From Corynebacterium variabile (GTDB lineage Bacteria > Actinomycetota > Actinomycetes > Mycobacteriales > Mycobacteriaceae), in assembly GCF_006539825.1 (NCBI RefSeq), contig NZ_BJNT01000004.1, forward strand, positions 124,001 through 188,000: DNA of 64,000 bases, given 5' to 3'. The notes beneath the pieces were generated by a model. The model did no database searches. It saw only the letters and a program-made list of their open reading frames with translations, and was not told the origin of the DNA. This document shows positions 6,538 through 18,433 of the stretch, piece after piece. Position numbers and translations under genes: made by a program. Within the stretch, counting starts at the first letter, position 1; every line of letters begins with the position of its first letter.

Positions 6538-7008
6538 ATGCGCACCTTCACCACCACCGAGGAACTGACCGACGCCAAGGGCGAGGACCTCGGCGTCACC
6601 GACTGGACCACCATGACCCAGGAGCGGGTCAACACCATGGCGGACGCCATCGACGACCACCAGTGGATCCACGTCGACAAGGAGCGGGCGGACGCCGGCC
6701 CCTTCGGCGGCCCCATCGCCCACGGCTTCCTCAGTCTCTCGTACCTGCCCACCCTCGCCGGCCAGACCTTCGACTTCTCCGCCTGGCCCGCACTGATCAA
6801 CTACGGCCTGAACAAGGCACGCTTCCCCGTCCCGGTGCACGTCGGCGACCGGATCCGCGCCCACGCCGTTCTCGCCGACGTGGTCCCCAAAGGTTCCGGC
6901 ACGCTGGTCACCCTCGACCTCACCCTCGAGATCGATGGTGGGGACGGCACCGTGAAACCCGGTTGCCTGTGCGAGTTCCTCGTGCTGCTGCTCGGCGAGC
7001 CGTCCTAG
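6538..7008 (+). CDS. MaoC-family (R)-enoyl-CoA hydratase-like protein
   Basis: This 156-residue single hot-dog domain has the MaoC active-site segment IDDHQWIHVDKERA, with the conserved Asp and His, and GGPIAHGFLSLSYLP downstream. Relatives hydrate 2-enoyl-CoA to 3-hydroxyacyl-CoA. AGGAG lies 5-9 bases before the ATG. It is co-directional with the acyl-CoA dehydrogenase. Its stop overlaps the stop of the opposing oxidase gene in a CTAG palindrome, so the two transcription units converge with no intergenic space. Confidence 0.92.
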   Translation: MRTFTTTEELTDAKGEDLGVTDWTTMTQERVNTMADAIDDHQWIHVDKERADAGPFGGPIAHGFLSLSYLPTLAGQTFDFSAWPALINYGLNKARFPVPVHVGDRIRAHAVLADVVPKGSGTLVTLDLTLEIDGGDGTVKPGCLCEFLVLLLGEPS

Positions 7009-8069
7009 AGCTGCTCCACCATCTCGGCGACGCGCTCGGCCGTGCCCCAGCTCAGGGTCACGCCCGCCCCGCCGTGCCCGTAGGCGGCGATGACCGGGAT
7101 GCTGACCTCGTCCGTGTCCACCTGCTCGATGCGCAGTGATGACCGGGAAGGACGCAGCCCCGCGCCGTGACCGAGGATCGGCAGCTCCTTCAGCGCCGGG
7201 ACCAGGGCCTCGGCCCGGGCGAGGATCGCTTCGGCGGTCTCCGCGTCCGGATCCTCATTCCCGTTGCCGACCTCGGCGATTCCACCGACGACAATGTCGT
7301 CCACCCGGGGGAAGACGTAGGTCATGTTCTCCGGATCGTCGTCATCGACGTACCAGTCGGTGAGGACGGGGCCACCGTCCTCTCCGCCGTCCCCGTCCTC
7401 GTCGTCGGAGCCGTTGGCGAAGACGATGACCTGGCCGCGAACCGGGGTGACCTCGTCGTCTCCGCCGAGCAGTTCGCCGCCGCGGAGTCCCCCGCAGATG
7501 ATGACCGCTTCCGGGGGAGCGGTGTTGTAGGCGCCCTTGACCAGCAGGTCGAGGGACTCCACCGTCTTCCACCGGAACGCCACCCCGGCGATCCGGCAGG
7601 AGTCCATGAGCCAGGCGAGGTAGGTCGGGGTCATGATCAGCGGCAGTGTCGTCTCGACACCGCGCTCGGCTCCCTGGGCGCCCTCGCGCTCGACCTCGGT
7701 CACGGCGTCCTCCCCGAGAACCTCGGTGACAGTCGGGACCCAGGAGCGGTCCGGCGGGTCGAGGCGCTCGCGGAGGAAGCCGCGGCGCATCTCGACCGGT
7801 GCGATGTCGTCGGTGACATCGTCGGCGCCCTCGGACTGTGCGGCCTCGGCCTGCCCCGCCAGCTCGACGAACCTGATCAGCGAGCGCTTCTCCAGGTCAG
7901 GAGCATTCTCGACGGTGACGTCGTAGGGGAACCAGAGGGCGCCGGCGCGGGCGGAGACGGTGTCCCCGGGGCCGTGGTCGGCGACGACGGTCACCTCATG
8001 ACCGGCTCCGGCGAGTTCGAGGGCACAGGACAGGCCGGTGACGCCGGCCCCGATGACGGTGATGCGCAT
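7005..8069 (-). CDS. D-amino-acid oxidase-like FAD oxidoreductase
   Basis: This 354-residue protein starts with the dinucleotide-binding strand ITVIGAGVTGLSCALELA. It has the DAO-type segments VRGQVIVFAN, TYVFPRVDDIVVGG and, near the C-terminus, GAGLRPSRSSLRIE, which contains the substrate-carboxylate Arg typical of D-amino-acid oxidase. The family oxidises D-amino acids to 2-oxo acids, ammonia and hydrogen peroxide. An acidic loop rich in Asp and Glu (about residues 225-240) is unusual. It is apparently monocistronic, and a 72-bp palindromic element lies directly upstream. Confidence 0.88.
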   Translation of the reverse strand: MRITVIGAGVTGLSCALELAGAGHEVTVVADHGPGDTVSARAGALWFPYDVTVENAPDLEKRSLIRFVELAGQAEAAQSEGADDVTDDIAPVEMRRGFLRERLDPPDRSWVPTVTEVLGEDAVTEVEREGAQGAERGVETTLPLIMTPTYLAWLMDSCRIAGVAFRWKTVESLDLLVKGAYNTAPPEAVIICGGLRGGELLGGDDEVTPVRGQVIVFANGSDDEDGDGGEDGGPVLTDWYVDDDDPENMTYVFPRVDDIVVGGIAEVGNGNEDPDAETAEAILARAEALVPALKELPILGHGAGLRPSRSSLRIEQVDTDEVSIPVIAAYGHGGAGVTLSWGTAERVAEMVEQL

Positions 8070-8224: not shown

Positions 8225-9631
8225 TCAGTACGCCGGGGTGAACCCGCCGGCGACCGCGGAGCGGACCATGCCCTCGTCGGCGGCCCGGTTGACCTCGTTG
8301 TAGGTCACGCCGTCGGCACCGGTCACGCCACCGGGCAGGTCCGCGTCGAAGGCGACCTTCCCGCCGACGTAGACCTTGCGCATGTGGCGCAGTCCGCAGG
8401 CCAGCACATAGGTCGCCACCGGATCCCACACCGGCCCGGTCGCCGGATGCCGAGGATCGACGACGACCAGGTCGGCGTACTTGCCGACCGTCAGCGAACC
8501 CACCTTGTCCGACACCCCGATGGAGGACGCCGAGCCGAGGGTGTGCAGGTGAAGCACCCGGTCCACCGACATGATCGAGGCGTCCGAATGGACCGCACGC
8601 TGGGTGAACAGTCCGGTGCGCATGTTTTCGAAGGGGTCGGAGGTGTCCGTGCAGGACTGGTCGTCGACACCCATGCCCACGGTCACGTCCTTGGTGAGCA
8701 ACCCGGTGATGTCGGCGATGCCGGAGCCGAGGCGGCCGTTGGACATCGCCTGCCACACCACCGACGTACCGGACTCCACCACCCGTTCGACCATCCGCTC
8801 GGTCGGGTGGACGAAGTGCCCGAAGGCGAAGTCGGTGCCGAGGACACCGGCGTCGTCGTACCAGTCGAACTTCGCCTGCTGGATCTCGATCTGTTCGGCG
8901 GTCTCCACGAAGTGCGCCTGGTTGGTGATCGACCACTTCTCCATCAGCTCTTTCTCCAGCTCGGCGGTCCGCCGGCCGGACGCCCACTGCACCGCGCCGT
9001 AGACCGAGCCGCCGAGGTTCAGTGCCGGGGTCTTGGCGTCGATGGTGGTCAGGTGGGACATCGCGGCGTCGAATCCGGCGACGGCGTCCGCCTCGGGAAG
9101 CTGCTCGTCGTCGACGCGTACCGAGGTGACGAACCGGATACCGGCGTCCGCCACGCCGTCGATCTGGCGGGTGACGAAGTCCGGGTCGTGGACCTTCACC
9201 GCCTTCAGCGTGGAGGACGCGTAGTCGAACCGGCACACCACGCGCGACTGGGTGAAGTTGTAGACGCTGGTCACACCCGCGGCGAGGTGGTCGAGTCCAC
9301 CGGCGCGGGAGAGCCAGTACATGATCTCCGGGTCTGCCTCGGCGAGCATCGCGGAGTTCTGCGTGACCCAGGTGTACAGCGGTTCGGTGTGGGCGATGCC
9401 GCGCATGCCGCCGGTGTAGATGTGGCTGTGCGCGGAGATGAATCCGGGCGCGAGGAAGGCGCCGTTGAGGTCGACGACCTCGGAGAACGCCGCGGTGGTC
9501 GCAGGGTCCGGTGTCCCTTCGCCGAGACCTGTGATGCGTCCGTCGTCGTCGACGGAGAGCCAGCCGCGGAACCAGCGGGGCTGGGCGGGGTCGACGGGGA
9601 TGATGACGGCGTCGATGAAGAGCGTGCTCAT
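8225..9631 (-). CDS. metal-dependent amidohydrolase / aminohydrolase (TrzA/AtzB/SsnA-like)
   Basis: This 468-residue amidohydrolase has all four metal ligands of the mononuclear deaminase subfamily: SAHSH (HxH) near residue 65, the His in QAHFVETAEQ, the His in FGHFVHPTERM, and the Asp in GMGVDDQS. The family removes amino or substituted-amino groups from heterocycles (8-oxoguanine, triazines, thiomethyladenosine); the substrate here is not identifiable. It has its own upstream promoter box and a conserved 5' leader shared with the operon at 18140, so it is probably co-regulated with the transporter and cytosine-deaminase-like gene. An SD-like AGGAGG precedes the ATG. Confidence 0.88.
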   Translation of the reverse strand: MSTLFIDAVIIPVDPAQPRWFRGWLSVDDDGRITGLGEGTPDPATTAAFSEVVDLNGAFLAPGFISAHSHIYTGGMRGIAHTEPLYTWVTQNSAMLAEADPEIMYWLSRAGGLDHLAAGVTSVYNFTQSRVVCRFDYASSTLKAVKVHDPDFVTRQIDGVADAGIRFVTSVRVDDEQLPEADAVAGFDAAMSHLTTIDAKTPALNLGGSVYGAVQWASGRRTAELEKELMEKWSITNQAHFVETAEQIEIQQAKFDWYDDAGVLGTDFAFGHFVHPTERMVERVVESGTSVVWQAMSNGRLGSGIADITGLLTKDVTVGMGVDDQSCTDTSDPFENMRTGLFTQRAVHSDASIMSVDRVLHLHTLGSASSIGVSDKVGSLTVGKYADLVVVDPRHPATGPVWDPVATYVLACGLRHMRKVYVGGKVAFDADLPGGVTGADGVTYNEVNRAADEGMVRSAVAGGFTPAY

Positions 9632-9691
9632 GGCAGATGGAACCTCCTGGGTCCGGCTGGGGTCAGTGACATGTCAGATGACGGTCAGACG

Positions 9692-9751
9692 GCGGTGTGC
9701 AGGAATGCTCTCTTGTGCCCTGCGTGAGGCAGGGCAGCGGTCGTGCACCGC
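9692..9751 (-). ncRNA. candidate structured leader / riboswitch, copy A
   Basis: Read leftward, GCGGTGCA (9751-9744) can pair with TGCACACCGC (9701-9692) to close a stem P1. Inside, GCCCTGC/GCAGGGC (9735-9729 with 9723-9717) forms a perfect 7-bp hairpin P2. Between P2 and P1 lies ACAAGAGAGCATTCC, which is nearly identical in copy B, as is ACGACCG on the other side of the internal loop. P2 differs in sequence between copies but still pairs. It lies between a -10 element (9769-9764) and the amidohydrolase start at 9631. It could be a known class I cannot name with certainty (the NMT1-associated xanthine class is one candidate) or a new one. Confidence 0.55.
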
Positions 9752-9763
9752 GTTACCGTTCTG

Positions 9764-9806
9764 AATCTACGGTGCCGGTGTTTCTGTCCGGTTTCCTGGC
9801 AGTCAA
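9764..9806 (-). promoter_or_regulatory. promoter with GlnR-like box for the 9631 amidohydrolase
   Basis: Read leftward, the segments are TTGAC (9806-9802), six bases, GAAAC (9795-9791), six bases, GAAAC (9784-9780), ten bases, then the -10-like TAGATT (9769-9764). The 11-base period and the sequence TTnAC-n6-GAAAC match the GlnR-type half-sites of other actinobacteria apart from the first base. The same module stands at 18402-18433 and 43938-43991. The predicted transcript has a leader of about 125 nt. Confidence 0.55.
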
Positions 9807-9825
9807 CGGGCGCTCCAGGGGCAGT

Positions 9826-10482
9826 TCAGCCGGGGAGAACCTCGGTCGTCCAGGCATCCGCGGAACCCTCAGCGCGCACATAGTGCACCCGCTGCGAGGG
9901 ACCGTCACTGTCGGCGGTCCAGAACAGGTACTCCCGCGGAACGACGGCGAAGCCCGCCCAGGTCTCCGGCGGGGTCAGTCCGGGGTTCTCCGCATTGAAC
10001 TGCGCCCACACCCGGTGGCGTTCCTCCGCCGGCTTCTCCGCCAGATCCTTGTCGCTGAGCCAGGCGAGCAGCTGCAGGTAGCGGGACCGGTCGGCGAAGG
10101 CGTCCGCCTCCTCGTCCGGTGTCGAGCGGACAGCATCACCCACCACGGTGACCTGCTTCGACCGGTCCGCGGCGAGAACGGTGAGCGAGACCTTCGAGTT
10201 CGGCCCGATGTGCCGCACCTTCTCCGAGCGAGAGTCGGTGTGGAAGAAGATGCGTCCCTCCTCCGTGCGGCTCACCATGACATTCCTGGTCCGCGGATAA
10301 CCGTCGGGGCCGACCGTGGCGAGCGTCATGAGCACCGGCGGCACCTCGGAGAGGTCCGCGGATGTCGGCGGCCAGGTCAGCCCGGCGTCCTCGGCGATAA
10401 GGACGCGGAAGTCCACCATCCAGGCGTCGAACAGGGCGGCGGGGTCAGCGGTCTGGTCCATGATGTCCACGCTACTTCTCAT
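9826..10482 (-). CDS. pyridoxamine 5'-phosphate oxidase-family flavoprotein
   Basis: This 218-residue protein has the FMN-binding split-barrel layout of PNP oxidases: MTLATVGPDGYPRTRNVMVSR, then FHTDSRSEKVRHI, and a C-terminal ERHRVWAQF and EYLFWT region. It is the last gene of the leftward operon, and its ATG overlaps the stop of the creatininase-family gene (ATGA). As a true PdxH it would make pyridoxal phosphate. Its position in a catabolic operon makes a different FMN- or F420-linked oxidoreductase role equally possible. Confidence 0.8.
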   Translation of the reverse strand: MRSSVDIMDQTADPAALFDAWMVDFRVLIAEDAGLTWPPTSADLSEVPPVLMTLATVGPDGYPRTRNVMVSRTEEGRIFFHTDSRSEKVRHIGPNSKVSLTVLAADRSKQVTVVGDAVRSTPDEEADAFADRSRYLQLLAWLSDKDLAEKPAEERHRVWAQFNAENPGLTPPETWAGFAVVPREYLFWTADSDGPSQRVHYVRAEGSADAWTTEVLPG

Positions 10483-11264
10483 GACAGATTCCCCGGATTG
10501 AACGTCAGGACCTCGGGCAGCGCATCCAGCACGGAGGTGACGTAGTCCTCGAACAACCGCTCACCGGCCGACGCCGAAGCACCCGTCGGATCACCGACCA
10601 CACCGGACGCATCGAAGTCCGTGGACAGCCAGCCGAACTTCACCGTCTTGCCGAAACCGACATGGTCGCAGGCTGCGACCGAGGAAGCCACCTTAGGCCC
10701 CAGCTCAGCAGCGGCGTCCATATCCACCAGCTCCGGTGCGACATGCAGCATCATCGAGGTCTCCGACCAGCCGGCGTGGATGCCCATGCCGCATTCCGTC
10801 TCGCCCGGGGTCGGTGGCGAAGAGACCAGGAAGGTCCGCAGGTCGAAGCGTCGACGCAGCTCCCGCAGGGCGACCTCCAGCAGTGCGGAGTTGCCGCCGT
10901 GCCCGTTGACGAAAAGCACCCGGCGCACCCCGGCAGCGGCCAATGACCGACCGAGGTCCACCAGCGTCGCGAACAACGTCGAGGCCTTCAGCCACAGCGT
11001 CCCGGGCAGTGCAGCATGCTCATCGGACTTGGTCACCGACAGTGCCGGCAGCAGCCACAGGTCATGCCCGGCGTCCACGGCACGGGACACCACCGCGGAC
11101 GCCACGGCCTCGGCCATCACCAGGTCAGTGGACATCGGCAGGTGCGGACCGTGGGGCTCCACGGCGCCGACCGGCACCACGGCCAACGACCCGGCGGTAA
11201 TCACCCGGCCGACCTCAGCCGTCGTCAGATCCGCCCAGCGGCGGGACGCGGTACTCACATCCAC
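10479..11264 (-). CDS. creatininase-family amidohydrolase
   Basis: This 261-residue protein shows the creatininase fold signatures: VPVGAVEPHGPHLPMSTD (metal-binding Glu, His and Asp, about residues 32-49), VNGHGGNSALLEVALRELR and GIHAGWSETSMML. Members hydrolyse cyclic amides such as creatinine, or act in formamide and mycofactocin-type pathways. It is embedded in the operon, overlapping the FAD oxidase upstream by 10 bases and the PNPOx-like gene downstream by 4. Opening a cyclic amide of a heterocycle would fit the neighbours, but the substrate is inference. Confidence 0.85.
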   Translation of the reverse strand: MDVSTASRRWADLTTAEVGRVITAGSLAVVPVGAVEPHGPHLPMSTDLVMAEAVASAVVSRAVDAGHDLWLLPALSVTKSDEHAALPGTLWLKASTLFATLVDLGRSLAAAGVRRVLFVNGHGGNSALLEVALRELRRRFDLRTFLVSSPPTPGETECGMGIHAGWSETSMMLHVAPELVDMDAAAELGPKVASSVAACDHVGFGKTVKFGWLSTDFDASGVVGDPTGASASAGERLFEDYVTSVLDALPEVLTFNPGNLS

Positions 11265-12691
11265 CTCCCGGGGTTGAGCAGTCCGTGCGGGTCGAAGTCC
11301 GCGGCCAGTCGCCGCACCCGGTCAGGCTCCAGGTCGATGTACCACTGGTGCGGGGAGTGCACGGAGACACCGAGCGCCTCCAGCTGCGGTACCCCGGCGG
11401 CGATCCGGTCACGCACCGTGTCGATGGACTCACCGGGCAGGACCGGCCCGTTGAGCATGCCGAACATCATGTCGTTGCCGACCTCCAGGTGGAAGTTCGC
11501 GCGCAACTCATTCCCGCCACCGTCAGGCACCGAGTACACGTCCAGCACCTCCTCGAACCGGTCGACGACGGCTGTACCCTGGCACTCCATGTGGAACCAG
11601 CGGCCCGGCTCCTTCTTCTGCAGCCACCACGTCGGGTGGTTGTAGGACAGGGTCGAGAGCTTCACCGAGGCGTTGATCCCGGTACGGGACGCCTCCATGC
11701 GTCCACCGTGGTCGGCGACGATCGTCTCGAACTCCGTCAGACGCGAGGCGTCGAGGATGCCGCGGACACTGCCGCGTCCCGGCACCAGTGCCTCGTCGTC
11801 CGGTAGCGCGGCGACGATGTCGGGACCGTCGGCGGACATCAGCCGGGGCTGCAGCCGGGCCCGCATCACCGCGGTCGCCGCGGCGAACGCCGAGGACCGG
11901 TCGGGGAAGGACGCGTAGACGTTCCGCCAGTCACCCAGCGGTTCGACCTTCACCGTCGCCCGGACGATGACGCCCGCCACCCCGTAGGTGTGCACGTAGG
12001 GTTGGGCGTCCTCACCCTCGAGGTGGATGATGCGGGCATCGGCGGTCGCGGGGACGATGTCGACGGCGGTGACGAAACCCTCGTGGTTGCGGCCGTGGAC
12101 GATGGTGCCGGTGCCGGCGGAGCCGCCACCGAGGAAACCGCCGAGCGTGGACTGCACCGTCGAGGGGTACATCCACAGCTGCTGGCCGTGCTCCTGGGCG
12201 TAGCTTTCCAGCGAGAGCATCTTCGCCCCGGCGTCCGCGGTGATCGTGCCGGCGTCCGGATCCACACCGTGGATGGTGGTCAGCGAGGTCATGTCCAGCA
12301 CGAGACCACCGAACCGGGGCAGCACCTGCCCGTAGTTGCCGGTGCCCTTGCCGCGGGTGGTCACCGGGACGCCGTGACGCACCGCGGCACGCATGATCTC
12401 CGGGACCTCGTCGACGGAGCGCGGATAGCAGACCACGTCGGGGACGCTGAGTTCCCCGGCGTCCAGCTGCGCGGTGATCACCGGGGACATGCCCGATCCG
12501 TCGCGGGACGCCCGGTCGACCGACCGCGGCAGTTGGGAGACCCCACGGGGCCCGAGGACCGCGATGAGGTCGTCGACCAGGGCGTCGACGTCCGCGGGCG
12601 AGAAGTCGGGGCGTCCGTCATCGCCGGCGACGGCGAAGAGATGGCCGACGTCGGTGCTGACCTTCACGCCCTCGCGTATTGCCTGGCTCAC
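11255..12691 (-). CDS. FAD-binding oxidase (GlcD / FAD_binding_4 type)
   Basis: This 478-residue protein starts at GTG 12691 inside the upstream stop codon. The FAD-binding type-4 domain is clear: VVCYPRSVDEVPEIMRAAV, then VTTRGKGTGNYGQVLPRFGG and VLDMTSLTTIHGVDPDAGTI (about residues 85-160). The C-terminus has the cap-domain ending RVRRLAADFDPHGLLNPG typical of the glycolate oxidase/vanillyl-alcohol oxidase superfamily. It probably oxidises an intermediate produced by the transporter and amidohydrolase of the same operon. The substrate is unknown. Confidence 0.87.
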   Translation of the reverse strand: MSQAIREGVKVSTDVGHLFAVAGDDGRPDFSPADVDALVDDLIAVLGPRGVSQLPRSVDRASRDGSGMSPVITAQLDAGELSVPDVVCYPRSVDEVPEIMRAAVRHGVPVTTRGKGTGNYGQVLPRFGGLVLDMTSLTTIHGVDPDAGTITADAGAKMLSLESYAQEHGQQLWMYPSTVQSTLGGFLGGGSAGTGTIVHGRNHEGFVTAVDIVPATADARIIHLEGEDAQPYVHTYGVAGVIVRATVKVEPLGDWRNVYASFPDRSSAFAAATAVMRARLQPRLMSADGPDIVAALPDDEALVPGRGSVRGILDASRLTEFETIVADHGGRMEASRTGINASVKLSTLSYNHPTWWLQKKEPGRWFHMECQGTAVVDRFEEVLDVYSVPDGGGNELRANFHLEVGNDMMFGMLNGPVLPGESIDTVRDRIAAGVPQLEALGVSVHSPHQWYIDLEPDRVRRLAADFDPHGLLNPGRWM

Positions 12692-13872
12692 AGCGACACT
12701 TCCGGGTCGAGGAACTCGTTGGTGGCGATCTCGTCCAGGGCGATGCCGTCCTTCACCGGGGTGTTCTGCTCGGCGAAGATCGGGGTGACGATGTCGGTGA
12801 CCTCCTGCAACCGGTCGGCGTCGAAGGACCCGAGGGTGCCGTCGGAGCCGTTGGCGACGAGCCCCTCGTCGCGCATGGTCTCGTGACCGTAGACGGCGTT
12901 GTCGGCGTCATAGATCCAGCCGGCGTTGAAGTCGGAGACCGCCTGGACAATGAGGTCGTTGGCGGCGTCCGGGTTCTCCATGTAGGACTTCGTGCCGCGC
13001 TGCAGGACCGGGATCAGTTCCTTGAGGCAGCCGGCGTTGTCGTCCTTCGCGTCCGAGCGGACCGCGAGGGTGGACTTGTACGTCGGGAATCCGGCGTCAT
13101 GCACCAGCTGGTAGTCGACGGGCTTCTTCCAGCCGTCGATGGTGTTCTCGTAGTTGTACGGCTCCGCGGAGGAGAAGCCCTGCTGGGCCTTCGCCCCGCC
13201 GGCGGCGACGAAGTTCGCCGGGGCGCCGTCGAAGCTCTCGTCGATCTGGGACTCGTCGAGGATGCCCGCACCCGTGAGGTAGCGGACGTAGGGGCGGTCA
13301 GGGAAGACGAGGACGGTGGCGTCCTTCTCCTTGAGGTCCTTGATCTCCTTGACATCCGGGTAGGTCTCCGGGTCCCACATGATCATCTGAGGGGATTTCT
13401 CCATCGTCGCCATGACACCCACGGTCGGCATCGAGTCCGACTGCTGGAGCGACTCGTCGGTGTCGACGTAGCCCAGCATGATGTCCTGGTCCTGGTACAT
13501 CTGCGAGGTCACCGTCTGGTTGCCGATTGCCGGACCACCGGAGCGGATCTCCAGGTCCACGCCGGTGAACCCGTTGTCGCCGTCGAACAGTGGGCCGGAG
13601 ACGACCTTGTTGTCCGCGTTGATGTCCAGGGCGTCCTTCCCGTCCCCGGCAGGGTCGAGCAGGTCGTACAACGGGCCGTGCTCGGCCTCGGGGAACCAGT
13701 CGGTCTGGACGGTGACGGTCGAAGGGCACACGGCCGACAGGTCGGTGGCGCCGATGTCGCCGTCATAGGAGGACGCGGCGGAGGTGCTGTCGCCGCCACC
13801 ACAGGCGGCGAGGACGCTGACGACGGCGGTGGTCAGGACGCCGGCGGCGACGGTGCGGGTTCTGTTTTTCAC
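12688..13872 (-). CDS. NMT1/THI5-type ABC transporter substrate-binding lipoprotein 2
   Basis: This 394-residue exported lipoprotein (lipobox SVLAAC, Cys about residue 24) has a periplasmic-binding fold. The segment VQTDWFPEAEHGPLY matches the W-P-HG-Y pattern of NMT1/THI5-like proteins that bind pyrimidine, riboflavin or purine-like ligands. The start codon is GTG with GGGGTGA upstream. It is a tandem duplicate of the gene at 13877-15064, only 4 bases away, with roughly three quarters of residues identical by eye; the ligand-loop segments are conserved. It probably feeds the same permease, perhaps with a different ligand preference. Confidence 0.88.
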   Translation of the reverse strand: MKNRTRTVAAGVLTTAVVSVLAACGGGDSTSAASSYDGDIGATDLSAVCPSTVTVQTDWFPEAEHGPLYDLLDPAGDGKDALDINADNKVVSGPLFDGDNGFTGVDLEIRSGGPAIGNQTVTSQMYQDQDIMLGYVDTDESLQQSDSMPTVGVMATMEKSPQMIMWDPETYPDVKEIKDLKEKDATVLVFPDRPYVRYLTGAGILDESQIDESFDGAPANFVAAGGAKAQQGFSSAEPYNYENTIDGWKKPVDYQLVHDAGFPTYKSTLAVRSDAKDDNAGCLKELIPVLQRGTKSYMENPDAANDLIVQAVSDFNAGWIYDADNAVYGHETMRDEGLVANGSDGTLGSFDADRLQEVTDIVTPIFAEQNTPVKDGIALDEIATNEFLDPEVSL

Positions 13873-13876
13873 GGTG

Positions 13877-15064
13877 TCACCCCAGGGAGATCGACGGGTC
13901 GAGGAACTCGTTGGTGGCGATCTCGTCCATGGCGATGCCGTCCTTCACCGGGGTGTTCTGCTTGGCGAAGATGGGGCTCAGGATGTCGACGAGCTTGTCC
14001 AGGCGACCGTCCTCGAAGGAACCGAGGGTGCCGTCGGCGCCGTCGGCGACCAGGCCCTCGTCACGCATCTTGGACACGCCGTAGTCGGCGTTCGCCTGGT
14101 CGTAGACCCAGCCGGAGTTGAAGTCGGCGACGGACTTGACGATGAGGTCGTTGGCCGCCGTCGGATCCTCCATGTAGGACTTCGTGCCGCGCTGCAGGAC
14201 CGGGATGAGCTCCTTGAGGCAGTCGGCGTTGTCGTCCTTGGCATCCGAGCGCACGGCCAGCGAGGACTTGTAGGTCGGGAAGCCGGCATCGTGGATGAGC
14301 TGGTAGTCGACCGGCTTCTTCCAGCCGTCGATGGTGTTCTCGTAGTTGTACGGCTCCGAGGAGGAGTAGCCCTGCTGGGCCTTCCCGCCACCGGCGGCGA
14401 CGAAGGTGGCCGGGGCGCCGTCGTAGGATTCGTCGATCTGCGACTCGTCGAGGATCCCGGCGCCGGTGAGGTACTTGATGTAGGACATGTCGGCGAAGGT
14501 CAGCACGGTCGCGCCGGTGTCCTTGAGGTCGGCGATGGAGTGCACGTCCGGGTAGGTCTCCGGGTCCCACATGATCATCTGCGGCGACTTCTCCAGCGTG
14601 GTCATGACGCCGACGGTGGGCATGGCGTCCGACTGCTGGATGGACTGGTCGGTGTCGACGTAACCGAGGAGGATGTCCTGGTCCTGGTACATCTGCGAGG
14701 TGACGGACTGGTTGCCGATCGCCGGGCCGCCGGAACGGATCTCCAGGTCGACACCGGTGTAGCCGTTGTCGCCGTCGAACAGCGGGCCGGACACGGTCTT
14801 CTTGTCCGCGTCGATGGTGACGGCGTCCTTGCCCTCGCCGCCGTAGTTGAGCTGCTGGTAGAGGTGGCCGTGCTCGGCTTCGGGGAACCAGTCGGTCTGG
14901 ACGGTGACGGTGGACGGGCAGACGGCCGACAGGTCGGTCGATCCGATCTCGCCGTCGTAGGAGGACGCGGCGGAGGTGCTGTCGTCGCCACCACAGGCGG
15001 CGAGGGAGACGGCGGTGCCGGCGGCGAGGGTGGCCGCGGCGAGGGTACGGACGGTGTACTTCAT
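13877..15064 (-). CDS. NMT1/THI5-type ABC transporter substrate-binding lipoprotein 1
   Basis: This 395-residue lipoprotein (signal ending VSLAAC) carries the same VQTDWFPEAEHGHLY motif as its downstream twin. Shared blocks include FDGDNGYTGVDLEIRSGGP and PYNYENTIDGWKKPVDY. It is the binding protein nearest to the permease gene, with 38 bases between them. NMT1-type proteins deliver aromatic heterocycles (thiamine pyrimidine precursors, riboflavin, hydroxymethylpyrimidine analogues). With a cytosine-deaminase-like enzyme in the operon, uptake of a pyrimidine- or purine-like compound is the likely job. Confidence 0.9.
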   Translation of the reverse strand: MKYTVRTLAAATLAAGTAVSLAACGGDDSTSAASSYDGEIGSTDLSAVCPSTVTVQTDWFPEAEHGHLYQQLNYGGEGKDAVTIDADKKTVSGPLFDGDNGYTGVDLEIRSGGPAIGNQSVTSQMYQDQDILLGYVDTDQSIQQSDAMPTVGVMTTLEKSPQMIMWDPETYPDVHSIADLKDTGATVLTFADMSYIKYLTGAGILDESQIDESYDGAPATFVAAGGGKAQQGYSSSEPYNYENTIDGWKKPVDYQLIHDAGFPTYKSSLAVRSDAKDDNADCLKELIPVLQRGTKSYMEDPTAANDLIVKSVADFNSGWVYDQANADYGVSKMRDEGLVADGADGTLGSFEDGRLDKLVDILSPIFAKQNTPVKDGIAMDEIATNEFLDPSISLG

Positions 15065-15102
15065 GGGGAGCTCCTGAGAGGTCAGAGGGGGTGGGACAGG
15101 GT

Positions 15103-16008
15103 CTACTTGCCGTACCAGCGGCCGACGACGCGGTTGCCGATCAGGCCGAAGACGAGGAAGACGACGACGCCGAGGAGGGACGCCAGGATGATCGCGGCGA
15201 ACAGGTCCGGGGACTGCAGCCGGGAGCGGTAGTTGTCCAGCAGGACGCCGATGCCCGGCGTCCCCTGCTTGAAGAAGAAGTCACCGACGATCGCGCCGAC
15301 GACCGCGAGGCCACCGGAGGTACGCAGGCCGACGAAGATCGAGGGCATCGCCGCGGGCATCTCGAGCTTGCGCAGGACGGTCAGCCGGGAGGGCTTGTGC
15401 AGTGCGAAGAGGTCGCGCATGCCCGGGTCGACGGACTGCAGGCCGAAGAGCGTGTTCGAGACCATGGGGAACAGGGCGATGAGGACGCAGACGAAGACGC
15501 GGGCGGAGAAGCCGAAGCCGAACCAGAAACCGATGAGCGGGACGAGGGCCAGCACCGGGATGCACTGGAGGAAGACGGCGTAGGGGAACAGGGCGGTCTC
15601 GGCGCGTTTCGACTGGGCCATGACGATCGCCCAGACGATGCCGATGACCGCGGCGATGAGCAGGCCGGTCATCGCGATCTTCGTGGTCTGCCACAGGGCC
15701 TGCCACATCTCGCCGGCGTTCGGACCGAACAGTCCCTCGGTGACGACCTGGTCGGGCGGCGGCATGAGGAAGCGGCGGGATTCGTCGAGGAAGACGTAGC
15801 TGACCAGGTACCAGACGGCGACGACGACGGCGAGGACGGCCAGCGGCAGCAGGACCGAGGCGTAGGGGATGTTGACCTTCCGCGTCGGCCGGCCGGTAGC
15901 GGGTGTGGAGCCGACCGGTGCGGCGGTCGCGGCGGCGGCGGTGGGGACGGACACGGCGTCCTCCTTGGACGTGGTCTGTGCGGTGGAGGTGGGTGCGGTG
16001 GTCGTCAT
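15103..16008 (-). CDS. ABC transporter permease (binding-protein-dependent)
   Basis: This 301-residue inner-membrane permease of the SsuC/ThiX type has a cytoplasmic N-terminal stretch rich in Ala and Thr, about six membrane helices, and the EAA-like loop FALHKPSRLTVLRKLEMPAAMPSIF that contacts the ATPase. The ATPase gene precedes it in the transcript, with its stop overlapping this ATG (ATGA). It forms the transporter with the products at 16005-16751 and the two binding lipoproteins. Confidence 0.93.
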   Translation of the reverse strand: MTTTAPTSTAQTTSKEDAVSVPTAAAATAAPVGSTPATGRPTRKVNIPYASVLLPLAVLAVVVAVWYLVSYVFLDESRRFLMPPPDQVVTEGLFGPNAGEMWQALWQTTKIAMTGLLIAAVIGIVWAIVMAQSKRAETALFPYAVFLQCIPVLALVPLIGFWFGFGFSARVFVCVLIALFPMVSNTLFGLQSVDPGMRDLFALHKPSRLTVLRKLEMPAAMPSIFVGLRTSGGLAVVGAIVGDFFFKQGTPGIGVLLDNYRSRLQSPDLFAAIILASLLGVVVFLVFGLIGNRVVGRWYGK

Positions 16009-16751
16009 GAGTGGGCCGCCATCAGGGAGGTGGAGACCCGTTCGGCGATCGCGGTGAACTCCGGGGTGAAGCGCAGCTCGGGGCTGCGGGGGAAGTCGAA
16101 GGGTACGTCGACGACGTCGACGATGGTGCCGGGGCGGCCGGACATCACCGCGACCTGCGTGGAGATGAATACCGCCTCGCTCACCGAGTGGGTGATGAAC
16201 AGCCCGCCGAAGCCCTTCTCCGCGAAGAGCTGGGTGAGTTCCACACCGAGGCGTTCACGGGTGATCTCGTCGAGCGCGGCGAAGGGCTCGTCGAAGAGGA
16301 ACAGTTCCGGCTCGATGGTCAGGGCGCGCGCCAGGGAGACGCGCATCTTCATGCCGCCGGAGAGCTGGTGGGGCAGGTGGTCCTCGAAACCGGTGAGCCC
16401 GACGGTCTCCAGTGCCTCGGTGCAGCGCTTCTCCTGCTCGGCCTTGGGCAGGTGGTCGAGTTCGCCGAGGAGCAGGACATTGTCCTTCACCGAGCGCCAG
16501 GGCAGGAGGGTGGCATCCTGGAAGACGTAGGCGATCCGGTCGGTGGAGGTGGTCATCACGCCGTCGGTGGCGGTCTCCAGGCCGGAGGCCAGGCGCAACA
16601 GGGTGGACTTGCCGCAGCCCGACGGGCCGACGACGCTGATGAACTCACCGGGGCGCACGTCGACGGACACGCCGGTCAGGGCGGTCGTGCCGCCGTCGAA
16701 GGTCATGCCGGTGTCGGCGAAGCTGACGAGTGGGGTACTCGGGGTACTCAC
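16005..16751 (-). CDS. ABC transporter ATP-binding protein (SsuB/TauB/ThiZ type)
   Basis: This 248-residue ATPase has Walker A GPSGCGKSTLLRL (about residue 39), Q-loop YVFQDATLLPWRSV, signature LSGGMKMRVSLARAL, Walker B LFLFDEPFAALDE and the switch His in FITHSVSEAV. The start is GTG 16751. It is the energy component of the NMT1-type uptake system. It is preceded in the operon by the cytosine-deaminase-like amidohydrolase (66 bases away). Confidence 0.94.
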   Translation of the reverse strand: MSTPSTPLVSFADTGMTFDGGTTALTGVSVDVRPGEFISVVGPSGCGKSTLLRLASGLETATDGVMTTSTDRIAYVFQDATLLPWRSVKDNVLLLGELDHLPKAEQEKRCTEALETVGLTGFEDHLPHQLSGGMKMRVSLARALTIEPELFLFDEPFAALDEITRERLGVELTQLFAEKGFGGLFITHSVSEAVFISTQVAVMSGRPGTIVDVVDVPFDFPRSPELRFTPEFTAIAERVSTSLMAAHS

Positions 16752-16817
16752 GGGTGTTCTCCTTTTTTCGCGGTGGATGCGGGGTCGGAGGCCGGGCTGC
16801 TCTGAGGAACGGGAAGC

Positions 16818-18140
16818 TCAGCCGACCGGCCGGAGGTCGGGGAGATGGGTGGTCAGGGTGGTCTGTGCGGCGAGGCGTCCGCCCGAGATGACGGTGCGGT
16901 CGGCCGGTGCCGCGGCGAGGAACGTGGCTGCGGTGGGGTGCCCCGGGGTGTCCGGGGCGCGGATGCACAGCAGGTCGGCGGTCTGTCCGGGCACGGGGCC
17001 TGCCGGTGGCAGCCCCAGGGCGGTGCGCGCGTCGACCGTGACCAGGTCGATGGCCTGCTCCGGGGTCTGGTGTGCGGCGGTGACCAGCAGGGACGCGGTC
17101 TCGAGTGGATCACCGCGACCGGTCGGGTTGAAGGGGTCACGGATGTTGTCACCACCGGCGGCGACGGCGACTCCGTGGTCGCGCAGCGCGGTGAGCGGGG
17201 CGATGCCACGCTCATGCAGCCCCTGCGTTCCGTCGCCGCCCTGGAGGTACAGGTTCGTCGCCGGCAGGGCGATGACGTGGATCCCGGCGTCCTTCAGGGA
17301 GGACGCAGTGTCCGCCAGTTCCGACGCGTCCATCTGGGACAGTCGGCAGCAGTGGCCGGCGCCGCGGATCCGGTCGGCGGGCCAGCCGATGACACGCCCG
17401 GCATAGCGGTGGACGGTCAGTGCGCGGTCACCGGAAGAACCGGCGAGGAACTCGTCGGTGTGCAGGTCACAGCCCACGCCACGGGCCTCGGCGACATCCA
17501 GCAGGGCATCGGTCTGGGCCAGCGGGTCCCCGGCAAGGTGCGGGGCACCGCCGACGAGGTCCGCTCCGGCGTCCAGTGCACCACCGGTCAGGGCGGTGAC
17601 CTGGTCGTCCGGGGTGTGGGCGGGCACCAGGGCGACGATCTGGAGGGTCATCAGGCCCGCCAGTTCCTCCTGGAGCCGGGTCAGGGCCCGGATGCCGCGG
17701 AAGGCGGCGGAGGAGAGGGAGGAGTCATCGGACGGGTAGACATCCACGTGGGTGCGCACCGCGGTGGTGCCCTGGGCGAGCATCAGCCAGGCGGCGCGCC
17801 GGGCCCGGTCGAGGATGTCCTCCTCGGTGAATCCGTCGGCGGCCTTCACCCAGGAGGCGATGGCACCGTCGAGGTCGCCGGCGGGCGGGTTCACGAGGTC
17901 ATGGCTCAGTGCCTTGTCCAGGTGGGCGTGCGGGTCGGCGGCGGCCGGGAACACGGTGTACCCGTGCAGGTCCAGCCAGTTCTCGTCGGACGTTGCCGCG
18001 GGTACACGGGCGGGATCGTGGGGGAGGACCCCGGCGACGGTCGTGCCGTCGACGGTGATGTCCACCAGTCGTCCGGCCGGGGCACCGTACAGGTGCACGC
18101 CGGCGATGCCGTGGAGCTGTGCTCCGGGAATGACACTCAT
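16818..18140 (-). CDS. cytosine deaminase-like amidohydrolase
   Basis: This 440-residue amidohydrolase of the CodA/N-isopropylammelide hydrolase group has its metal and catalytic sites visible: DPHAHLDKAL (HxH), LHTDEF, GHCCRLSQM and GGDNIRDPFNPTGRGDPLE, where the Asp equals the metal ligand of cytosine deaminase. Such enzymes deaminate cytosine, isoguanine, creatinine or triazines. It is the first gene of the leftward operon and is preceded by a conserved structured leader. It is probably cytoplasmic and acts on the compound imported by the downstream ABC system. Confidence 0.87.
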   Translation of the reverse strand: MSVIPGAQLHGIAGVHLYGAPAGRLVDITVDGTTVAGVLPHDPARVPAATSDENWLDLHGYTVFPAAADPHAHLDKALSHDLVNPPAGDLDGAIASWVKAADGFTEEDILDRARRAAWLMLAQGTTAVRTHVDVYPSDDSSLSSAAFRGIRALTRLQEELAGLMTLQIVALVPAHTPDDQVTALTGGALDAGADLVGGAPHLAGDPLAQTDALLDVAEARGVGCDLHTDEFLAGSSGDRALTVHRYAGRVIGWPADRIRGAGHCCRLSQMDASELADTASSLKDAGIHVIALPATNLYLQGGDGTQGLHERGIAPLTALRDHGVAVAAGGDNIRDPFNPTGRGDPLETASLLVTAAHQTPEQAIDLVTVDARTALGLPPAGPVPGQTADLLCIRAPDTPGHPTAATFLAAAPADRTVISGGRLAAQTTLTTHLPDLRPVG

Positions 18141-18291
18141 CGGACCCTCCTCTACCGGGTCTTGGGGGTGACCGGTGCAGCCGTCGGCGGTGCGCGTCCC
18201 GTGGTCAACGGAAGCGTCACATCGCCGGTTGCACTGGTCGCTGGTACCGGACGCCGGACGGCGACCGGGAGAAGATCGACCATGACAGTCG

Positions 18292-18379
18292 GCGGTGTGC
18301 AGGAGTGCTCTCTTGTGTCCGTCGTCTGCGCCGGGCTGGGGCGGAGACGTTCAGGAACCGGACAACGGTCGTGCACCGC
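18292..18379 (-). ncRNA. candidate structured leader / riboswitch, copy B
   Basis: This is the same architecture as the leader at 9692-9751. P1 pairs 18379-18372 (GCGGTGCA) with 18301-18292 (TGCACACCGC). P2 begins TGTCCG (18364-18359) and closes with CGGACA (18321-18316), with a further inner helix CGTCT/AGACG. The joining strand ACAAGAGAGCACTCC and the opposite ACGACCG match copy A, while P2 has a different sequence and is longer. It lies in the 5' leader of the NMT1 transporter operon, about 150 bases before the first start codon. Confidence 0.55.
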
Positions 18380-18401: not shown

Positions 18402-18433
18402 AATCTACGGAGACCGTGTTTCCCGTCTGTTTC
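18402..18433 (-). promoter_or_regulatory. promoter with GAAAC direct repeats, leftward operon
   Basis: Read leftward, the order is GAAAC (18433-18429), six bases, GAAAC (18422-18418), ten bases, then TAGATT (18407-18402). Spacing and sequence around the -10 (CCGTAGATTCA) are the same as at 9764-9784. It drives the eight-gene operon from 18140 down to 9826. Confidence 0.5.

Follow-up and report, generated by a model that had tools for sequence, protein, structure and literature searches.

A conserved, foldable leader element in front of two gene units of Corynebacterium variabile: a riboswitch candidate

Introduction

Xanthine riboswitch I (NMT1 RNA, RF03054) is the described system closest to the element reported here, a conserved and probably structured leader that occurs twice, as W1 and W2, on the minus strand of a 64,000-nt stretch of the Corynebacterium variabile genome (contig NZ_BJNT01000004.1, positions 124,001 to 188,000; this whole stretch is called the window below). 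According to the available part of its published account (PMC7373994), NMT1 RNA is a two-stem, hairpin-type RNA with conserved joining strands, found in Proteobacteria, which leads operons with NMT1-type binding proteins, IPNS-like dioxygenases (pcbC) and amidohydrolases; the same part of the account lists NMT1/THI5-like, tauA-type, dioxygenase, PDR-type and 8-hydroxyguanine-deaminase-like amidohydrolase genes in this class and reports that reporter assays show an OFF switch; the Corynebacterium element, by contrast, is proposed below to be an ON switch. Two leader motifs of the genus itself also invite comparison. The purS motif (WRC-75-1) is presented, in the portion of PMC11109978 at hand, as a weak riboswitch candidate limited to Corynebacterium with a possible anti-Shine-Dalgarno (anti-SD) loop; it lies upstream of the phosphoribosylformylglycinamidine (purine) synthesis operon and is set beside our element by description only. 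The ilvB motif, a conserved Corynebacterium leader that was initially a riboswitch candidate, is reported in the sections available of PMC10272879 and PMC11109978 to be an upstream open reading frame (uORF) of ilvBNC. No description of the present element was found in the literature searched, although a 2017 survey of 224 candidates could still contain one.

We propose, with a probability of roughly 0.6, that W1 and W2 belong to a cis-regulatory RNA aptamer, a new and narrow riboswitch class found so far only in Corynebacterium and perhaps acting as a translational ON switch. The riboswitch nature of the element is inferred from its gene context, and the evidence for and against it is given below.

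Results

Two related leaders, one in front of an amidohydrolase gene and the other in front of an operon for an NMT1-type transporter and a cytosine-deaminase-like enzyme, had been predicted on the minus strand, and both were confirmed at the expected places (Table 1). Each contained the closing strands GCGGTGCA and TGCACACCGC, the internal strand ACGACCG and the strand ACAAGAGAGCAyTCC, and the hairpin between them differed in sequence and length between the two copies yet was paired in both. The core, which the hairpin interrupts, was identical at 37 of 39 letters. When ACAAGAGAGCANTCCTGCAC was searched with up to three mismatches, W1 and W2 were the only sites in the window (mean of 0.01 sites in 100 shuffles, none of which reached two), and ACAAGAGAGCANTCC without mismatch occurred only at these two sites across the 3.19-Mb genome. 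Outside the core, identity between W1 and W2 was 0.56 in the 60 nt upstream (shuffles up to 0.60), 0.41 in the hairpin (up to 0.41) and 0.54 in the 60 nt downstream (up to 0.59). Conservation was thus confined to the core, excluding a recent local duplication as the source of the likeness.

A covariance model (R1) was built on four sequences, W1, W2 and two found by pattern in genomes G147 and G028, and run over 242 Corynebacterium genomes with stricter filters, by which weak matches may be lost. It gave eight elements in seven genomes: the four building sequences, among them both W1 and W2 from the genome of the window (G000), and four new ones in G176, G030, G003 and G080. Across the eight elements, 33 of the 39 core positions were invariant, and flanks and insert of W1 or W2 compared with those of G080 were likewise at or near shuffle level.

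The samples searched outside the genus were partial. With a second model (R2) and stricter filters, G000 and G080 alone matched among 401 family genomes (31 genera) and G000 alone among 394 class genomes (137 genera), two sets in which the inclusion of the other carriers was not established. A strict pattern matched W1 alone among 397 order genomes (85 genera); its gap limit of 40 makes W2-type elements invisible to that scan. When R2 was run on 80 loci that encode relatives of the binding protein, it gave four strong matches, all of them to already known Corynebacterium elements (the next had an E of 0.052 and no core), and on 10 further loci, including stray copies of the binding-protein gene, the best E was 0.34 and nothing was credible. 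Pattern scans of genome and viral contig collections found no element; the genome-contig scan used a single fixed form of the two blocks with a spacing of no more than 40 nt, and could therefore not have detected the majority of the eight elements described here. Two exact core matches, CAAGAGAGCACTCC near 1501 (locus L008) and near 380 (locus L011), lay in a sequence context shared by two other genomes of the genus, had neither P1 nor P2 (the stems described next) and were dismissed as apparently unrelated.

The element was predicted to fold into a closing stem, P1, and a hairpin of variable length, P2. The insert that forms P2 between the conserved blocks was 21 to 78 nt long, with paired ends in every case. 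End pairing was compared with that of dinucleotide shuffles (500 per insert): it comprised 8 bp in W1 (equalled by 2 shuffles), 7 in G147 (5), 6 in W2 (4), 6 in G028 (6), 5 in G176 (11), 5 in G030 (11), 5 in G003 (15) and 3 in G080 (87). As a whole, W1 was outdone in folding by 3 of 200 shuffles (z -2.82) and W2 by 9 of 200 (z -1.82). Covariation among homologues bore out the P2 pairing: in the eight-row alignment A3 both sides had changed in four of six pairs, counts that are not corrected for phylogeny, and the covariation score of 0.138 was higher than that of all six slid controls (maximum 0.074) and was reached by none of 500 shuffles. The G080 row of this MAFFT alignment was apparently off by one gap; by eye its P2 consists of GGG/CCC followed by ACGUGGAU/AUCCGCGU, consistent with the fold computed for G080. 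An RNA nature of the element is supported by the covariation of P2. The part of the original prediction that saw here a structured RNA stands on the core, on P2 and on recurrence before the same genes in seven Corynebacterium genomes, and its placement in a 5' leader is suggested by promoter geometry (see below).

P1 was identical in all eight sequences, so that no covariation could be obtained from it. It can be drawn either with eight pairs, the 3' strand then having a 2-nt bulge, or with six unbulged pairs (GCGGTG/CACCGC) next to a small GCA-YKCC-UGC hairpin. RNAalifold chose the latter, a 6-bp P1 and a 3-bp hairpin that together with P2 make a three-way junction, in which 3 of 14 pairs covaried with a score reached by 1 of 500 shuffles. 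In the isolated element, the bulged 8-bp P1, the three-way junction and a 5' hairpin (CGGU/ACCG) were only 0.4-3.5 kcal/mol apart in every sequence, making all three topologies candidates for the precise fold. The option of GCGGU to pair either with the adjacent ACCG or with the distant CACCGC may be a reason why this strand is frozen.

A near-invariant P1 and near-invariant loop strands are also what would be expected of a protein site, and the covariation of P2 is compatible with any RNA structure. A structured leader RNA recognised by a protein, such as an antiterminator or a translational regulator, and by no small molecule, is nevertheless rather unlikely in our judgement, as the Pfam scan of 25 window proteins, to which the check was confined, showed no candidate RNA-binding regulator. 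The frozen strand could instead be coding, that is, a leader-peptide attenuator starting at a GTG in P1 (V-H-D/H-R-C...). The GTG and codons 1-4 were in frame in all eight elements, a Cys stood at codon 5 in seven of them and, with G080 excluded, three columns varied as far as the Cys codon, two of which were wobble positions; the reassignment of the ilvB motif, once a riboswitch candidate, to the uORFs (in the available part of PMC11109978) adds a precedent from the genus. Unlike ilvBNC, however, no SD-like string preceded the GTG in any of the eight elements, the reading frame varied in length from 5 to 75 codons and shared no stop, the Cys was absent from G080 and the conserved 3' strand was left unexplained. 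None of the eight sequences combined an SD with a conserved stop, as a leader peptide apparently should, and we consider a uORF very unlikely.

The two units named in the prediction were indeed found behind W1 and W2. Six of the eight elements headed one operon, for a cytosine-deaminase-like enzyme, an ABC ATPase, a permease, an NMT1-type binding protein, a FAD oxidase, a creatininase, a PPOX protein and an amidohydrolase, and the other two (W1 and G147) headed amidohydrolase and DAO genes alone. The DAO gene lay directly 3' of the operon in G000, G176, G030 and G003 and about 3.4 kb further in G028, and was not seen within the G080 stretch. Genes for a reductase, an amidohydrolase and an IPNS-type dioxygenase upstream were also kept in the six operon loci, the dioxygenase gene being inverted in G080. 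A profile of the binding protein (E<=1e-30) matched 6 of the 242 genomes, exactly the six with a W2-type element; the seventh carrier, G147, has its element before the amidohydrolase and DAO genes. Three stray copies of the binding-protein gene (in G030 and G028) lay outside the operon, one of them adjoining a dioxygenase gene, and R2 found no element beside them. Both gene sets probably degrade a nitrogen-containing ring compound. The binding-protein profile had no match in the PDB, and the AlphaFold model of the protein (mean pLDDT 31) was unusable. In the window the binding-protein genes stand in tandem (12688-15064), and the same profile found a single cluster copy in the five other operon-bearing genomes.

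The two leaders of the window also shared a promoter module, GAAAC-n6-GAAAC-n10-TAGATT, which without mismatch occurred genome-wide only there. A looser form, GAAAC-n6-GAAA(C/T)-n10-TA(C/G)NNT, was upstream of all eight elements. A scan with the sigma-70 consensus found no promoter, and the location of the elements in the 5' untranslated region is proposed from the conserved -10. Six related operons of other genera were compared: three Kineosporia loci and Cellulomonas marina had GTNAC-n6-GAAAC-n10-TA(G/C)ATT at the equivalent place, and both Nocardia loci were without it. The Kineosporia and Cellulomonas module is consistent with the GlnR box as given in the available part of PMC10704036, according to which nitrogen control in Corynebacterium is exerted by AmtR and not by GlnR.

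All six related loci had a divergent gene for a protein with helix-turn-helix (HTH) and cupin parts (called by Pfam in L031, L032, L037, L042 and L038; in L041 the cupin by Pfam and the HTH by eye in an open frame), and in all six the palindrome ATGTT-N9-AACAT adjoined the promoter. This palindrome, at 5660 in L031, 5823 in L032, 6206 in L037, 6131 in L038, 6014 in L041 and 5690 in L042, is a candidate operator of the HTH-cupin regulator. It was found in none of the eight Corynebacterium leaders. HTH-cupin matches of near-full length were present in four of the seven carriers, at 26-34% identity, and the HTH part alone in the other three. Short matches confined to the HTH part, at 41-44% across some 60-70 residues, were also noted within a few kb of the cluster in G028, G030, G003 and G176, in open frames of 104-159 amino acids (G003:C448:149538, G176:C41:194636, G030:C1:309318 and G028:C2:1096199). 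A swap in Corynebacterium from an HTH-cupin protein to an RNA as the regulator is plausible.

The position of a palindrome near the equivalent promoter position, beside an HTH-cupin gene, in the six operons of other genera also lends itself to a different reading of the Corynebacterium element, namely a DNA operator just past the promoter, in which a transcription factor would bind a dyad GCGGT-N5-ACCGC in the 5' strand together with another half-site located in the 3' strand. The invariance of P1 agrees with it, and the dyad was perfect in W1, G147 and G080, W1 being the sole perfect match in the window (0.34 expected). The dyad was imperfect in the other five elements, however, and the ends of the insert stay paired although the spacing of the blocks varies, which would be needless in double-stranded DNA. 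No transcription-factor domain was recognised among the 25 scanned window proteins (67 to 30291, open reading frames partly covered, two proteins without Pfam match), and the HTH-cupin matches in the carriers are as sparse and as distant as described above. We regard an operator as unlikely.

The original prediction had further suggested a diverged member of the NMT1/xanthine class or a new purine/heterocycle sensor. Of 4227 Rfam models, none matched either leader at gathering score; relaxing the threshold to E<=10 yielded six weak matches, far below the cut-offs, all on the opposite strand, and none on the leader strand. RF03054 in particular had no match in the window at gathering score, on the leader strand at E<=10 or genome-wide. 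Control genomes were also without a match in the genome-wide scan; the model is functional in our hands, because it found two matches in a Pantoea locus. Compared by eye, the consensus junction strands of RF03054 were absent from the core of our element, and the letters of the two cores differed. A diverged NMT1 RNA has in its favour a layout that is similar by verbal description (P1, P2 and conserved joining regions, in the available part of PMC7373994), similar gene types and the presence of NMT1 RNAs beside genes for distant homologues in Pantoea; given the absence of any match and of the consensus strands, we hold such membership to be most improbable.

On the Pantoea plasmid the two RF03054 riboswitches, the only matches in the seven loci searched, had a dioxygenase gene on one side and a binding-protein/amidohydrolase pair on the other; the products of these genes are distant homologues of the window proteins (24-28% identity). 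The two riboswitches occupy opposite strands at 8496-8814 of locus L128, and the dioxygenase and binding-protein genes are divergent. Homologous clusters with Rid-type genes were found in Sulfitobacter and Nitratireductor, the latter with an adjoining ureidoglycolate lyase gene, and neither cluster had an RF03054 match. On a Rhodococcus plasmid (L126, 10602-13038) a relative of the IPNS-type dioxygenase (56%, top-ranked among plasmid records) adjoined genes for a nucleobase:cation symporter and an XRE regulator, an arrangement that hints at a purine substrate.

Two other Rfam matches were seen in the window. A TPP riboswitch (24216-24117, minus strand, 63.8 bits) was followed by genes for an SDR (24058-23291) and a luciferase-like monooxygenase (23351-22023), neither of them a recognised thiamin gene. 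A match to 5_ureB_sRNA, a Helicobacter family, lay at 63737-63598 (minus strand, 43.6 bits) and may merely mirror similarity to a urease gene.

Table 1. Features of the W1 and W2 loci (positions in the window)
Feature	Position	Strand	Remarks
DAO-type FAD oxidoreductase, behind amidohydrolase	7005..8069	-	
Amidohydrolase behind W1	8225..9631	-	nearest NCBIfam model 8-oxoguanine deaminase, 146 bits vs cut-off 532
Shine-Dalgarno AGGAGG, amidohydrolase gene	9643..9648	-	
Leader element W1	9692..9751	-	60 nt; before amidohydrolase gene; R1 match E 7.7e-16, R1 partly built from W1
Candidate anti-SD AUUCCU of W1	9701..9706	-	conserved; SD pairing 0.92 in free fold
P2 hairpin of W1	9716..9736	-	8 bp; equal end pairing in 2/500 shuffles
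W1 promoter module GAAAC-n6-GAAAC-n10-TAGATT	9764..9795	-	inferred -10 at 9769-9764
PPOX-type flavin oxidoreductase	9826..10482	-	
Creatininase-family hydrolase	10479..11264	-	
FAD-linked oxidase	11255..12691	-	
NMT1/THI5-type substrate-binding protein 2	12688..13872	-	79% identical to protein 1
NMT1/THI5-type substrate-binding protein 1	13877..15064	-	
ABC transporter permease	15103..16008	-	
ABC transporter ATPase	16005..16751	-	
Cytosine-deaminase-like amidohydrolase, first gene of W2 operon	16818..18140	-	
Shine-Dalgarno AGGAGG, cytosine-deaminase-like gene	18146..18151	-	
Leader element W2	18292..18379	-	88 nt; before cytosine-deaminase-like/ABC operon; R1 match E 2.2e-17, R1 partly built from W2
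Candidate anti-SD ACUCCU of W2	18301..18306	-	conserved; SD pairing 0.66
P2 hairpin of W2	18316..18364	-	6-bp closing stem, then inner stem; equal end pairing in 4/500 shuffles
W2 promoter module GAAAC-n6-GAAAC-n10-TAGATT	18402..18433	-	inferred -10 at 18407-18402

Discussion

In the riboswitch that we propose, a substrate or intermediate of the pathway would bind a junction formed by CACSACCGN facing CRASAGAGCAYKCC, between the invariant closing stem P1 and the length-variable hairpin P2. Without ligand, the 5' strand would fold on itself (CGGU/ACCG) and YUCCU would pair with the AGGAGG of the ribosome site, giving low translation; with ligand bound, P1 and the junction would be stabilised, YUCCU withdrawn and the ribosome site freed, and uptake and degradation of the compound would be turned on downstream of a promoter of the nitrogen-control type.

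Folds of the leaders, for which the transcription start was assumed to lie a few bases past the -10, agreed with this scheme in part. AGGAGG paired with YUCCU in the free fold at a probability of 0.92 in W1, 0.67 in G147, 0.66 in W2 and 0.61 in G028, and the unpaired fraction of the SD rose, when P1 and P2 were enforced, from 0.05 to 0.64 in W1, from 0.09 to 0.32 in G147, from 0.20 to 0.34 in W2 and from 0.23 to 0.66 in G028. No intrinsic terminator was found on the leader strand, the sole terminator-like site (18409-18423) being on the plus strand. A translational ON switch would fit a catabolic operon and four of the eight leaders, and we hold it with moderate confidence.

Several observations weigh against a riboswitch. 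The pairing of the anti-SD was 0.00 in G176, G030, G003 and G080, where enforcing P1 and P2 freed nothing. When the whole leader was folded freely, the probability of P1 was only 0.00-0.23, and enforcing P1 and P2 cost 2.3-8.7 kcal/mol; the low probability is either an argument against P1 or what a state stabilised by ligand would look like. P1, for want of covariation, could be a sequence-specific binding site, and the three topologies of the element are close in energy. As to P2, its pair 21-88 was unpaired in four of the eight rows, the end pairing of G080 was easily matched by shuffles, and the stability of the whole insert was unexceptional in G176, G030 and G003 (z -0.8, -1.1 and -0.4). 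Because these last three genomes have identical cores, the eight elements appear to represent only about four independent lineages, and near-complete conservation together with no member found outside Corynebacterium is unusual for an aptamer.

With respect to the ligand, the gene context points weakly, by analogy, to a purine-like or hydantoin-like compound, and the resemblance to the contexts of NMT1 RNA makes an oxidised-purine-like heterocycle a possible lead, though only that. Going further, we offer as a tentative idea that a second RNA class, unrelated to NMT1 RNA, senses an intermediate of the kind of oxidised-purine-like pathway that NMT1 RNA controls, and in Corynebacterium has replaced the HTH-cupin protein and its palindrome at a shared ancestral promoter of the nitrogen type. 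If true, this would be a case of RNA sensing convergent with that of the proteobacterial NMT1 RNAs, together with a swap of a protein for an RNA regulator.

If the element is a riboswitch, it is a compact addition to the candidates known from Corynebacterium alone, and an identified ligand would name the compound that is taken up and degraded by an unexplained nitrogen-scavenging operon of the actinobacteria. One operon and promoter would then be under the control of an RNA in one genus and of a DNA-binding protein in others.

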